DNA of 64,000 nucleotides from positions 62,001-126,000 of the forward strand of contig DUQH01000114.1 of NCBI GenBank assembly GCA_012837895.1. Reading direction: 5' to 3'. The number at the start of each line of letters is the position of its first letter. Within the stretch, counting starts at the first letter, position 1. A model generated the notes under the pieces. The model was not told the origin of the DNA, ran no database searches, and saw nothing but the letters and a program-made list of their open reading frames with translations. This DNA is from Candidatus Fermentithermobacillaceae bacterium (GTDB lineage Bacteria > Bacillota > Sulfobacillia > Fermentithermobacillales > Fermentithermobacillaceae). The translations under genes and the position numbers were made by a program. Of the stretch, positions 135 to 25,429 are shown piece after piece.

Positions 135-579
135 ATGTATGAAAAAGCTACAGCACCTTCAAGAAGCTGCTCAATTTTCGTGCAGGTTTGAACGGGAACT
201 GCGTAAGTTTCAGACGGCTGTATGAAAAAACTGCGCCTTCGCAAAGGACCTGTCTGATTTTGCTGCAGGTTTCCGAAAAGCTGCAGCTTTTTTGAGCAGG
301 TTAGATGAGGACCTGTATCGATATTGTACGGCTGTATGAAAAAACTGCGCCTTCGCGAAGGACTTGTCTGATCTTGCTGCAGGTTTCCCGAAAAGCTGCA
401 GCTTTTTTGAGCAGGTTAGATGAGGACCTGTATCGATATTGTACGGCTGTATGAAAAAACTGCCCGTTCACGGGAAACCTGCCTGGTTTTCCCACAGCTT
501 TTCGAAAACCTGGATCCTTTTTGTACAGGTTGGAAAGGGAACCGTGCAAATATCAAACAGCCGCTAAATAAAGGCGCAG
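135..579. repeat. Array A1: 16 phased CTG-N13-CAG palindromic boxes
   Basis: Boxes of 19 bp with outer arms CTG and CAG (or close variants) are centred at 144, 176, 208, 227, 259, 290, 322, 341, 373, 405, 437, 456, 488, 519, 551 and 570; a weaker one may sit at 602. Steps run 32-32-19-32-31-32-19 and so on, so four boxes make a 114-115 bp unit. Units 217-330 and 331-445 are almost identical; the flanking units have diverged. Box centres are A/T rich and the idealised box is CTGTAT-n7-ATACAG. No convincing ORF crosses the array. It lies just beyond the 3' end of the minus-strand gene at 627. Bases 1-134 hold nothing else recognisable. A protein-binding array is inferred; no function is known. 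Confidence 0.85.
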
Positions 580-626
580 CTTCCCAAAGGAGCTGCGCGT
601 CGAACAACCCGGCCTGGTCCTGGGAA

Positions 627-2249
627 CTAAAACCCTAGAGCTACTCCCCCTATCCTGCTGTCAGAACCGGCCAGAAGTGCACCGGTTTCCTGGTCTTTCA
701 TTATAATCTGAGCTCCACCGCCCCCTGAATATGGGCCCACAACATGCACATCATGTCCCATATCGGCTAGCCGGGCTATGGTATCTACCGGAAACCGGGA
801 CTCGAGAGTAAGCTTGGGCGGCTGCTTGAGGGCAATCATATCTGTACCAGGGATTGAAATCCACCTCGGGAAATCTGCCGCTTCTTGCGGGCCTGCCCTG
901 TGATCCAGCATAAGGCTTAGCATCTGCATGTTCCACTGTGGTTGTCCGTCTCCTCCAGGGGTGCCGCCGACGATAAAGGGCACACCTTCTTCTAGCACCA
1001 TGTAACAGTTGAGAGTGTGCATAGGACGCTTCCCAGGCTCCAAGCAGTTCGGGTGGCCTGGAATCATGTTGAAAGACCTGCCTGCCCGGTTATTGAGAAT
1101 CACTCCTGTTCCAGGCACCACGACTCCGGACCCAAACGAAAACGCAATGCTTTGTATAAAGGAACAACAGTTGCCGGCTTCGTCCCATGCTACAAACGAA
1201 GTAGTATCGCCTTCTGCAGGGTTGCCCTGAGACATCATATATTGAGTCCCGTCCTGGATCCGCCCCACTGCCTCCCGGGCATATTCCTCTGATATAAACC
1301 TGGAAACATCGAAGCCGGATACTGCAGGATCCCCTGCAAAGGTATTGCGATCCGAAAATGCTACCTTCTTAATCCGGACCATGAGGTCAGTTGAATCAGC
1401 CGACTTAGGGTCAAGTTTTTCTACATCGAAATGCTCCAAGAGATTCATTTGCTCTAAGACCATGAACCCGGCAGACACAGGAGCAGTCTCCAGCACAGTA
1501 TAGTTTCTATAATCAGTCCTTATGGGCTCGTACCACCCAGGTGAATCCTCAAGATGTCTTGCAAACTCGCCTCCCAGGAAAGTCCCGCCCATCCGCCTAC
1601 TCATCTCATAGAACTTCTCCGCAAACGCTCCTTTATAGAAGTACCCTGCGCCTTGAGCCCCGAACTCGCGGAGGGTACGCGCAAGGTCCTCCTGTCTGAA
1701 CAAGGTCCCTGCTCTGGGTGGATTTCCACCGGGCAGGAAAACCCGGAAAGTTTCTTCGCACTGCGACAACTTATTCTTCCCCGCGTAAACCGCTTTCTCA
1801 AAACGGTCAGATACCACAAAGCCCTCTTCTGCGATTTTTGCCCCTGCTTCGAAACACTGCGCCAGAGAAAAGGTGCCAAACCTCCTGCAGGCAAGATCGT
1901 ACACCAGAGGCGCCCCGGGGACGGCAACCGAATGAATTCCATGTTGCGGCAAGATCTCGCCTTGGCCGGCGAACCTCTCCAGCGTAGAATCGTCACCGGG
2001 AATCCCGCTTCCGTTGAGTGCAACCGTATCCCCAGTGGCAGCATCGTAGTAGATCAGAAACGCGTCCCCGCCTAGCCCGCACATGTGGGGAAGCACTACT
2101 GAGGTAACACTTGCCATGGTAAGACATGCATCCATTGCATTTCCTCCGGACCAGAGAGCTTTGAGGCCCGCCATGGCAGCCAAGGGGTGAGCAGCCGCAA
2201 CCATGCCTTTTTTCCCAACCTGGCAATTCTTGAAGCGCGACTCAAACAT
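627..2249 (-). CDS. gamma-glutamyltransferase family protein
   Basis: An Ntn-hydrolase of the gamma-glutamyltranspeptidase family, 540 residues, close to the usual length. The N-terminal part has the family signature around residues 18-65 (AAHPLAA, GGNAMDA, GLGGDAF). The autocatalytic site is GDTTSF, where Thr349 would be the new N-terminal nucleophile after self-cleavage. The GTPGGDGQPQWN segment is a typical substrate-loop region. There is no signal peptide, so the enzyme probably acts in the cytosol, unlike secreted GGTs; many such clostridial paralogues act on gamma-glutamyl compounds or related amides rather than glutathione. ATG start with GGGGGAT eight bases upstream. It stands alone, divergent from the MBL gene at 2485. 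Substrate unknown. Confidence 0.88.
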   Translation of the reverse strand: MFESRFKNCQVGKKGMVAAAHPLAAMAGLKALWSGGNAMDACLTMASVTSVVLPHMCGLGGDAFLIYYDAATGDTVALNGSGIPGDDSTLERFAGQGEILPQHGIHSVAVPGAPLVYDLACRRFGTFSLAQCFEAGAKIAEEGFVVSDRFEKAVYAGKNKLSQCEETFRVFLPGGNPPRAGTLFRQEDLARTLREFGAQGAGYFYKGAFAEKFYEMSRRMGGTFLGGEFARHLEDSPGWYEPIRTDYRNYTVLETAPVSAGFMVLEQMNLLEHFDVEKLDPKSADSTDLMVRIKKVAFSDRNTFAGDPAVSGFDVSRFISEEYAREAVGRIQDGTQYMMSQGNPAEGDTTSFVAWDEAGNCCSFIQSIAFSFGSGVVVPGTGVILNNRAGRSFNMIPGHPNCLEPGKRPMHTLNCYMVLEEGVPFIVGGTPGGDGQPQWNMQMLSLMLDHRAGPQEAADFPRWISIPGTDMIALKQPPKLTLESRFPVDTIARLADMGHDVHVVGPYSGGGGAQIIMKDQETGALLAGSDSRIGGVALGF

Positions 2250-5440: not shown

Positions 5441-5517
<77 letters not shown>

Positions 5518-5524
5518 GCGTCTG

Positions 5525-5598
<74 letters not shown>

Positions 5599-5625
5599 AT
5601 GTGTTTAGTACCCTTAAGTTAATAA

Positions 5626-5700
5626 TGGAGCGGAAGACGGGATTTGAACCCGCGGCCCTCGCCTTGGCAAGGCGATGCTCTACCACTGAGCTACTTCCGC
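5626..5700 (-). tRNA. tRNA-Gly(GCC)
   Basis: 75-base cloverleaf with encoded CCA. GCGGAAG acceptor stem, anticodon stem CGCCT closing the loop with anticodon GCC, and TTCAAAT T-loop. Confidence 0.96.
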
Positions 5701-5707
5701 TCGTTGA

Positions 5708-5783
<76 letters not shown>

Positions 5784-5812
5784 ATGAGTTGTTGCCATTT
5801 CTGATGATGAAA

Positions 5813-5890
5813 TGGCGGAGGCGACGGGATTTGAACCCGCGATCTCGTGCGTGACAGGCACGTATGTTAGGCCAGCTACACCACGCCTCC
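5813..5890 (-). tRNA. tRNA-Asp(GTC)
   Basis: 78 bases with encoded CCA. GGAGGCG acceptor stem, a D-arm of the GTGTAGC type common in aspartate tRNAs of Firmicutes, anticodon stem CGTGC/GCACG with loop CTGTCAC (anticodon GTC), and T-loop TTCAAAT. The discriminator base is G. Confidence 0.95.
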
Positions 5891-5899
5891 GCGTTCTTC

Positions 5900-5974
5900 T
5901 GGTGGGCGAAACAGGGATTGAACCTGTGACCCCCTGCGTGTAAGGCAGGTGCTCTCCCGCTGAGCTATTCGCCC
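5900..5974 (-). tRNA. tRNA-Val(TAC)
   Basis: 75 bases with encoded CCA. GGGCGAA acceptor stem, anticodon stem CCTGC/GCAGG with loop CTTACAC (anticodon TAC), T-loop TTCAATC. It is the first gene of the cluster in transcription order; with the GAC isoacceptor at the other end, the cluster serves both families of valine codons. Confidence 0.96.
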
Positions 5975-23687: not shown

Positions 23688-24980
23688 TCAAGTCCCGCCT
23701 CTTGTATCTGAAGAAGGTACAGCTTTTTCAGGCGGATACCAACTTGAGTTGAGTTTTTCCATCTTCACCACGTTGCCATCACGTATATACTTCCGCCAAG
23801 TTTCAACCATAAAGCCGCTTCGCAACTTAGGGGTATTCCCGGCGTCACCGTTCCCGCCATCCTCACCGTTTATGCCGTCGCCACCTGTAACGCTATCTGA
23901 AACAGGCTGGGCAGGGATTTCTTTAACCACTCTGGCTTCCAACTCGATAACCAGATCTGGAACCTTTTTGCCGAATACCTTAACTGTCAAACACCCGTCC
24001 TTGGCCTCTGTTTTCAAAATACATGGTGCATCCAAGCAGTTTTTCATTTTGAGGTCCAAAATGTCATAGGCTACCGTGGCATCCAACCCAAGGGGCACGT
24101 AACTTACAGGCATTCCATGGTTATACCGCTCGACGATTTCAAAGCCGGCCTTGAGCAAGGCCACATACAGGGTGGTTGAGACCTGACACACTCCTCCTCC
24201 GTAATCGTCAACCACTTGATCTCCTATGAATACCCCGGCTTTCCTGTATCCATTCTCCTTTGACCTGGGCCCGGTGATCTGGTTAAAGGACAGCACCTGA
24301 CCAGGGCTAATCGTAAGTTCATCCAGAACACTGCTTGCGAGTGATATGTTGTGCGCCCGGTCATTCGTGTCCTGATAATAAGTGGAATAGGAAGATATGA
24401 CCTCAAGAGGAAGATGACTTTCCAGCTGTTCAGTAGTCACTTTGGGCTCTATATAAACCAGAGGCAGGTAAAGCCGGGCCGGGATCTCAGCCCATCCGTC
24501 ACCGGAAACAGATTCAGCCAGTGCATCTTTGTCAACAACAACACCGGGCCTGCTACTTATCACCTCTACCCTGTCATCTTGGGTGATATTGAACGAAGCA
24601 TCGAGGGGATCCTGTCTGAAACGTTCCGCTACCGCATCGAGCCAAGAAGCTTTCCGTTCTTGGTCCACTTGAAGCAAGAGGGGATATCGTCTCTTAGATA
24701 TAAGCCATAGAGGGCGCCTGAGCGCCCTGACGGTATTTTCGATATCAGGGCTAATCCCAATAGATGCCATGGGATATTTCTGTGAATCCCGGTCAAGGCC
24801 TACAAGCTCAAGGGAACGTGATTCCCAAGACAGGGCTTCTTCCAGGACTGAAGCAGCTTGGCTGAAACTCAACCAACCTAAGTCAATTCCACATACCTGG
24901 GTTCCCGGCAACACTACCAGGTAACCTAGGAGGGACATGGATATCAGTACCGCAAGAATGACCCAAAACCGTCGTTTCAT
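23688..24980 (-). CDS. VanW-family protein with peptidoglycan-binding-type N-domain
   Basis: 430 residues. An N-terminal membrane anchor (FWVILAVLISMSLLGYLVV) is followed by a ~200-residue region of the putative peptidoglycan-binding type found in YoaR-like proteins, then the VanW domain from about 235 (DRAHNISLASSVLDE, LSPGQ..FN, YGGGVCQVSTTLY). The C-terminal ~70 residues contain a Gly-Asp-Asn-rich linker. VanW proteins are wall-associated and of unknown activity. The frame is open 57 codons upstream, but GGAGATGGG lies just before the ATG at 24980 and that start gives a normal anchor. It shares strand with, and lies upstream of, the imuB cassette. Confidence 0.85.
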   Translation of the reverse strand: MKRRFWVILAVLISMSLLGYLVVLPGTQVCGIDLGWLSFSQAASVLEEALSWESRSLELVGLDRDSQKYPMASIGISPDIENTVRALRRPLWLISKRRYPLLLQVDQERKASWLDAVAERFRQDPLDASFNITQDDRVEVISSRPGVVVDKDALAESVSGDGWAEIPARLYLPLVYIEPKVTTEQLESHLPLEVISSYSTYYQDTNDRAHNISLASSVLDELTISPGQVLSFNQITGPRSKENGYRKAGVFIGDQVVDDYGGGVCQVSTTLYVALLKAGFEIVERYNHGMPVSYVPLGLDATVAYDILDLKMKNCLDAPCILKTEAKDGCLTVKVFGKKVPDLVIELEARVVKEIPAQPVSDSVTGGDGINGEDGGNGDAGNTPKLRSGFMVETWRKYIRDGNVVKMEKLNSSWYPPEKAVPSSDTRGGT

Positions 24981-25151
24981 TACCCATCTCCGATAATGGA
25001 TTTCCGCCGCTAACAAGACGGGGCCGCCGATCCATATATATTCTGACGCCTGGTGGAAGGATTCCGGGTACAGGGGTATTTGGAAGATGCTCATGAAGGT
25101 ATTCGCGAGGGGTAGATTTGGGTCAGGTATTGATGCACCTCCCGGCCTCAC

Positions 25152-25429
25152 CTGTCCGATAAAGACACAGCTTTTTGGAAACCTGTATGAAAACTAGGCA
25201 GGTCTTTCGGAGGACCGTACCTTTTTGATACAGCTGTCTAGAATCTATACAGCCTCCATCAGAACCTGTACAAGAAAGATACACCTTTTCCAAAACCTGT
25301 ATGAGAATCAGGCAGCATCCCTGCAGAGATGTAGTTTTTTCATACACCCGTTCAAAATTTACACGGCTTCGGGAAAATCTGTAACAAATTCATACAGCTT
25401 TTCTAAGAACCTGTTCGAAAATCAGCCAG
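25152..25429. repeat. Array A2: ten phased CTG-N13-CAG boxes, same family as A1
   Basis: Boxes of 19 bp are centred at 25161, 25192, 25224, 25243, 25275, 25306, 25338, 25357, 25388 and 25420, giving steps 31-32-19-32-31-32-19-31-32 and a 113-114 bp unit. Arms are CTG/CAG or close variants (CCG, CAC), with A/T-rich centres, as in A1. The reverse complement of about 25291-25366 aligns with part of A1, so the two arrays are in opposite orientation. It fills the gap between the sigma-factor 3' end and the VanW start. Confidence 0.82.

Follow-up and report, generated by a model that had tools for sequence, protein, structure and literature searches.

We lean toward regarding the array of palindromic boxes at positions 135-579 of the window, the whole 64-kb stretch of DNA analyzed here, as the dispersed DNA part of a two-part system, the protein part being a winged-helix protein with a Vsr/EDxHD-type nuclease-like domain that would bind and cut at the boxes. 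As best we can read it, this would be an undescribed gene-plus-array system working in the manner of RAYT/REP. The observations behind this view are constrained modular arrays, a wHTH-nuclease gene as their neighbor, the parallel decay of the two within a genus and, throughout the gene family, an association with arrays, a common period and a bias toward the upstream side of the gene. Our partial coverage of the literature turned up nothing on the array, the protein family or their pairing.

The window derives from G000, a Ca. Fermentithermobacillaceae MAG that belongs to one genus with four sister species (G001-G004), and its features are listed in Table 1. That 16 boxes lie at 135-579, as originally predicted, holds: boxes 1-15 are recovered by a symmetric box matrix with free linkers (0-25 bp) and the last, which falls under the threshold of this parser, was read by eye. 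The CTG-N13-CAG form by which they had been described is, however, exact in only 6 of them, with ∼0.3 expected at the array and 41 matches in the whole window. Each box is a 19-bp palindrome with a 3-bp centre, and successive boxes start at steps of 32,32,19 / 32,31,32,19 / 32,32,32,19 / 32,31,32,19 bp, giving not the four full units that had been claimed but one short three-box unit, three four-box units and a last box that abuts them. Units 2 and 3 are almost identical in sequence, which we read as a recent duplication. R1, a sequence-only model of the array unit, matches the window array at G000:C64:62158-62561.

Table 1. Coordinates of the array and of neighboring features in the window
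Feature	Positions	Strand	Description
Box array	135-579	+	16 palindromic 19-bp boxes, consensus CTGTATGA-NNN-TCATACAG, with 0/12/13-bp linkers
Unit 1	135-217	+	three boxes (135, 167, 199), 83 bp
Unit 2	218-331	+	four boxes (218, 250, 281, 313), 114 bp
Unit 3	332-446	+	four boxes (332, 364, 396, 428), 115 bp
Unit 4	447-560	+	four boxes (447, 479, 510, 542), 114 bp
Box 16, CCGCTAAATAAAGGCGCAG	561-579	+	abuts unit 4
Putative gamma-glutamyltranspeptidase-like gene (ggt)	627-2249	-	3' end faces the array; named from a reading of its sequence
Possible intrinsic terminator of ggt	564-598	-	box 16 and the next linker; GCGCAGCT..AGCTGCGC hairpin, then CTTTATTT
Second array, of the same family	25152-25429	-	10 boxes; steps 31,32,19,32,31,32,19,31,32

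The hairpin and the CTTTATTT that follows it on the minus strand make a plausible terminator for ggt; this hairpin appears in the computed fold of the array and was left unflagged by a simple terminator scan. In G002 a different long hairpin occupies the matching position beside ggt, so that arrays may start from, or replace, terminators. The second array of the window has an ECF-type sigma factor gene on one side and a VanW-domain gene on the other, and its ortholog is present in G002. The VanW-domain gene (23688-25151) separates this array from the next gene and is without counterpart there in G002. A minus-strand cluster of six tRNA genes lies at 5444-5974 of the window.

In order to establish how strictly the boxes are spaced, linkers were left free in parsing 29 independent arrays from four species, two loci duplicating window arrays having been removed. 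Of the 197 linkers, 195 are 0 bp (53), 12 bp (56) or 13 bp (86) long, the other two measuring 16 and 23 bp, with abutting boxes recurring every three or four boxes; the same parser returned no box clusters from shuffled sequence of all loci. The boxes themselves depart from their consensus, on average, at 3.5-4.9 of 16 positions, and between the same pairs of species intergenic DNA outside arrays shows 24 indels per 443 substitutions, or approximately one indel per 18 substitutions. Because linkers are invariant in diverged boxes while ordinary intergenic DNA gains indels, the comparison points to constraint on array spacing beyond what simple duplication would leave. Two claims of the original prediction are thereby borne out: that spacing is kept where box sequence has drifted, which is now seen genus-wide, and that it exceeds the regularity expected from tandem duplication. 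By arithmetic at 10.4 bp per turn, a step of 31-32 bp amounts to three helical turns, and units of 83 and 114 bp to ∼8 and 11 turns. We make no claim of intrinsic curvature, since the A/T-tract peaks at 16.25 and 10.25-10.5 bp both arise as harmonics from the 114-bp unit, and the 16-bp alternation that dominates would make bends cancel and not add up.

Arrays of this kind were counted with R1 in the five genus genomes, 150 candidates being scored per genome so that the counts are lower bounds: at least 65 matches in G000, 32 in G003, 12 in G002, 8 in G004 and 1 in G001. Among the candidates scored, arrays or relics occur in 5/5 genus genomes and in 0/9 other genomes of the family. The R1 search places ∼11 diverged array loci in G000 (at least 10), and, judged by orthology of the flanking genes, at least 6 intergenic loci, including that upstream of polA, carry same-site arrays in two to four species. 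In this genus a single member of the gene family thereby has its arrays dispersed over many intergenic sites. Orthologous arrays vary in length between species: at one site G000 has 20 boxes, G004 two and G001 a relic with two. Their steps stay at 19/31/32 bp with few exceptions (35 and 30 bp in G002). Conservation in close relatives had been proposed as a check on function, and in the sister species orthologous arrays do follow the 0/12/13-bp grammar without drift in spacing. Presence of an array at the same locus gave a divided answer: seven sites have orthologous or same-position arrays in relatives, but the window site, on the 3' side of ggt, has only a one- or two-box relic in G004 and none in G002. 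Since a polA tree places array-poor G001 as sister of array-richest G000, the simplest reading is that G001 lost its arrays.

The genes that flank the arrays have no common function that we could find and include those for a sigma factor, VanW, His phosphatase, amidohydrolase, DinB-type polymerase, thiolase, D-serine dehydratase, CotJA, SpoVA and M50 protease, among others; array orientation relative to them is mixed, with no preference. Three near-identical units at C64:21336 reflect recent local duplication. Contigs C58 and C61 of G000 end in one array sequence (L053:1-344; L054:12-143), and because their flanks are joined upstream of polA in G004 and G002 the assembly must have broken inside an array. 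A phage or plasmid origin was considered and rejected, as phage and plasmid collections contain no similar DNA and the exact pattern is absent from viral contigs.

A gene for a 244-residue protein (G000:C64:27927-28658) adjoins the array at C64:28740, ∼33 kb to the left of the window. Its N-terminal winged helix is matched by the Pfam HTH_IclR/MarR_2 and MarR profiles. In the C-terminal nuclease-like domain, which is found in phage proteins as well, residues E139, D141, E151, G154, Q156, H157, T161, D176 and K179 are invariant in 17/17 aligned members, and the D, E, G, Q, H, D and K columns are invariant across chromosomal and phage members. An AlphaFold model built from 15 phage homologs (pLDDT 91.6) compares well with Vsr (Z 10.6, 110 residues, 2.9 Å) and with the catalytic domain of the EDxHD homing endonuclease I-Bth0305I (Z 10.4, 97 residues, 3.3 Å), so that the domain is predicted to be a nuclease of Vsr/EDxHD type, the fold being that of phage homologs ∼35% identical to it (32-45% in the alignment). 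A PDB sequence search with the nuclease profile gave no match, and NCBIfam and PADLOC hold HTH fragments alone and no full-length family. IMG/VR contigs L250-L288 encode Vsr/EDxHD-like domains joined to treble-clef zinc fingers (DUF4379) or to some different N-terminal part; these phage proteins are probably free-standing homing endonucleases.

Encoded beside an array, and MarR/IclR-like in its winged helix, this protein is the natural candidate for a reader of the boxes, and we assume that its specificity is for CTGTATG. The syntenic gene (S4) is intact in G000 and G003, in both of which it adjoins a same-family array, and the two orthologs are 74% identical with dN/dS of about 0.12-0.2. G004 retains the C-terminal half of the gene, beside an array, G002 a 35-residue remnant between the same neighbors, and in G001 the gene is absent together with its segment. 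Over these five genomes array abundance falls with gene decay; G002 and G004 keep short arrays despite the broken gene. Weaker boxes where the gene is broken were looked for and the idea dropped, since G004 boxes score as high as those of G003. Relatives of the gene occur in genomes that lack window-type arrays, and the case for its pairing with this array type is therefore made by adjacency and decay. The closest homolog outside the genus, in G006 (L150:4625-5337), is 63% identical over its N-terminal part and frameshifted; it lies beside CotJA and is syntenic with a gene-less array on G000 contig C32, which suggests that some orphan arrays may stand where the gene once was. Upstream of a paralog in G001, two arrays of short period (about 18 and 16 bp) occupy L140:5414-5883, the second with CTGTCTTGC..CATACTG boxes at 32-bp intervals, similar to the lost boxes of the genus type.

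Beyond the genus, the wHTH-nuclease family is present in 31/398 Bacillota genomes, in up to 7 copies each. Strong TRF arrays (score at least 150) lie within 1 kb of 19/58 genes and are absent from 133.6 kb of same-contig controls; in a held-out set they occur at 6/20 genes vs 0/60 control windows (p=1.3e-4), all controls being matched by contig or genome and not by intergenic fraction. With permissive TRF settings 33/58 genes have an array within 1 kb, vs 6/60 controls, and in 25/58 none is detectable; array divergence or contig ends account for some of these and may account for the others. Array coverage is 11.3% near the gene vs 3.4% far from it. The array sequences are unrelated between paralogs, yet a comb of 31-33 bp recurs at 13/58 genes vs 0/60 controls (p=4.5e-5) and at 3/20 vs 0/60 in the held-out set (p=0.014), together 16/78 vs 0/120, and no other period tested is significantly enriched beside the genes. 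Clear combs have a period of 32 bp in G002, G006, G010, G195 and G343, 31 bp in G005 and G021 and 33 bp in G008; periods of 37, 53, 72, 75 and 86 bp are found among the associated arrays as well, and not all of these are inverted repeats. Arrays lie upstream of the gene at 22/27 loci (p=0.0015). The complete genome G367 (3,566,135 bp) has seven wHTH-nuclease genes (L190-L195, L306), most of them beside different arrays, with periods of 37-250 bp and lengths up to about 1.1 kb; large arrays stand at 5/6 of the genes first examined and at the seventh, held-out gene.

A two-part system of this sort might work as follows. A protein dimer would bind each 19-bp palindrome through its winged helices, the half-sites being about 12 bp apart centre to centre, and boxes three turns apart would align on one face of the helix, leading to cooperative recruitment of the protein. 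Binding upstream of its own gene would control expression, while nicking or cutting at the sites could drive local duplication of units and, rarely, the spread of arrays through repair. Once the gene is lost, arrays would no longer be renewed and would erode. We put forward more tentatively, as a possibility we would not yet favor, the general form of this scheme, in which such gene-array elements are self-propagating and widespread in Bacillota, the nuclease cutting its own phased array and thereby promoting growth, dispersal and persistence of the gene, with paralog-specific arrays and with orphan arrays as former insertion sites.

Other explanations differ in what they take the boxes to be. 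A structured RNA or single-stranded DNA hairpin element is very improbable: the window array does fold better than its shuffled versions whichever strand is taken (z -5.3 and -5.6), which is to be expected of any array of palindromes, but RNAalifold finds no consensus pair in the arrays, Rfam has no match at the window array and in 193 distinct boxes the arms are, at every arm position, just as complementary as independent conservation of each would make them, a lack of covariation that makes folded RNA or single-stranded DNA unlikely. To judge from their sequences the half-sites are conserved singly, like the sites of a symmetric protein and unlike hairpin arms, in keeping with that part of the original prediction. 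Its suggestion of ordinary repressor operators fares less well. Symmetric CTGTAT..ATACAG half-sites would suit a cluster of operators for LexA or some other repressor, but 12/17 near-perfect boxes in the G000 genome lie within arrays (control 2), too few being left outside for an ordinary regulon, isolated ones are not in excess at genes, the box is 19 bp with a 3-bp centre and the flanking genes are unrelated. We find such a regulon scarcely credible; the same counts dispose of a MarR/IclR regulon with single operators at several promoters, and nothing connects the boxes to LexA, there being no CTG-N10-CAG within 1-620 and no Gram-positive GAAC-N4-GTTC in the consensus. A CRISPR array was likewise rejected, as the 0/12/13-bp linkers are mutually similar and the boxes diverged, in place of identical repeats with unique spacers. 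Passive repeats of REP/BIME type, spread by other machinery and bound by housekeeping proteins or serving as terminators, with the neighboring gene incidental, would account for mosaic arrays of palindromic modules scattered between genes and for the one linker that may terminate ggt. We consider them improbable, given an association of gene and array that is family-wide and replicated in held-out data, the missing hairpin covariation and the absence of a Y1/RAYT transposase from every genus genome; RAYT/IS200-type mobilization was rejected on this last ground (no Y1_Tnp, PF01797, in 5 genomes).

It is easy to see how a chance palindrome, tandemly duplicated, could pass its spacing on by inheritance and not by selection, and recent local duplications (window units 2 and 3; the three units at C64:21336) together with array lengths that vary freely between species are what such a neutral satellite would produce. 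Against this, linkers in diverged copies are never 10, 11, 14 or 15 bp although intergenic DNA gains ∼one indel per 18 substitutions, and the 32-bp period recurs in unrelated arrays beside genes of the wHTH-nuclease family; we give the satellite quite little credence. Unlikely, but deserving more weight, are arrays that serve the host as operators or nucleoid sites, the winged-helix protein regulating its own gene and organizing chromosome domains while the nuclease is inactive there or otherwise employed. Strict helical spacing, the mostly upstream position of the arrays (22/27 loci), intergenic positions conserved between species, purifying selection on the gene and the lack of any orientation preference would all be consistent with this. 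The catalytic-type residues are nonetheless invariant across paralogs, the distribution is patchy and multi-copy (31/398 genomes, up to 7 copies), G001 has lost both parts wholesale and the flanking genes share no function, and we prefer the gene-plus-array system in which the protein would act on its own array.

Were this reading right, it would supply a second answer, independent of RAYT transposases, to the question of how dispersed bacterial palindromic repeats originate and are maintained. Dozens of paralog-array pairs, matched but of different sequence, would then be material for tests of recognition, of three-turn cooperativity and of amplification, and sequence-specific winged-helix nucleases with array-encoded targets could serve as reagents.

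Several known systems share features with the one proposed. Pneumococcal BOX elements (PMC3049150) are also intergenic repeats built of modules, the internal ones variable in number, but appear to differ in the size of the modules and in sequence and grammar. Phased repeats upstream of a winged-helix gene are also a feature of the iteron or operator arrays that go with winged-helix Rep or MarR-type proteins; the present arrays are chromosomal and lie dispersed at many loci, and their protein has a domain of nuclease type in place of one for replication or ligand sensing. I-Bth0305I and Vsr resemble the C-terminal domain in predicted fold and catalytic-type residues, and I-Bth0305I binds as a dimer to a DNA target that is unusually long, at nearly 60 bp (PMC3943268), whereas here the domain is fused to a winged helix and encoded beside chromosomal tandem arrays, with no intron, intein or homing event seen. 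REP/BIME-RAYT (PMC2817692) is closest only as a functional analogue, its defining features, the Y1 transposase and hairpin covariation, having been looked for here and found wanting. The enzyme in our case is winged-helix plus Vsr/EDxHD-type, with a Y1 (HUH) gene in 0/5 genus genomes (PF01797), the 193 distinct boxes and RNAalifold reveal no hairpin covariation, the arrays are 32-bp phased and mostly upstream in place of two inverted flanking REPs, and the consensus of box and linker, CTGTATGAAATTCATACAG + CTTTTCGAAAAG, has no GTAG/GTGG head. What the two have in common are dispersed intergenic palindromes in mosaic arrays, the dedicated gene of a DNA-cutting enzyme, here a predicted one, beside its own repeats, repeat sequences that differ for each copy of the enzyme and, in general form, a gene with both an adjacent array and dispersed ones.
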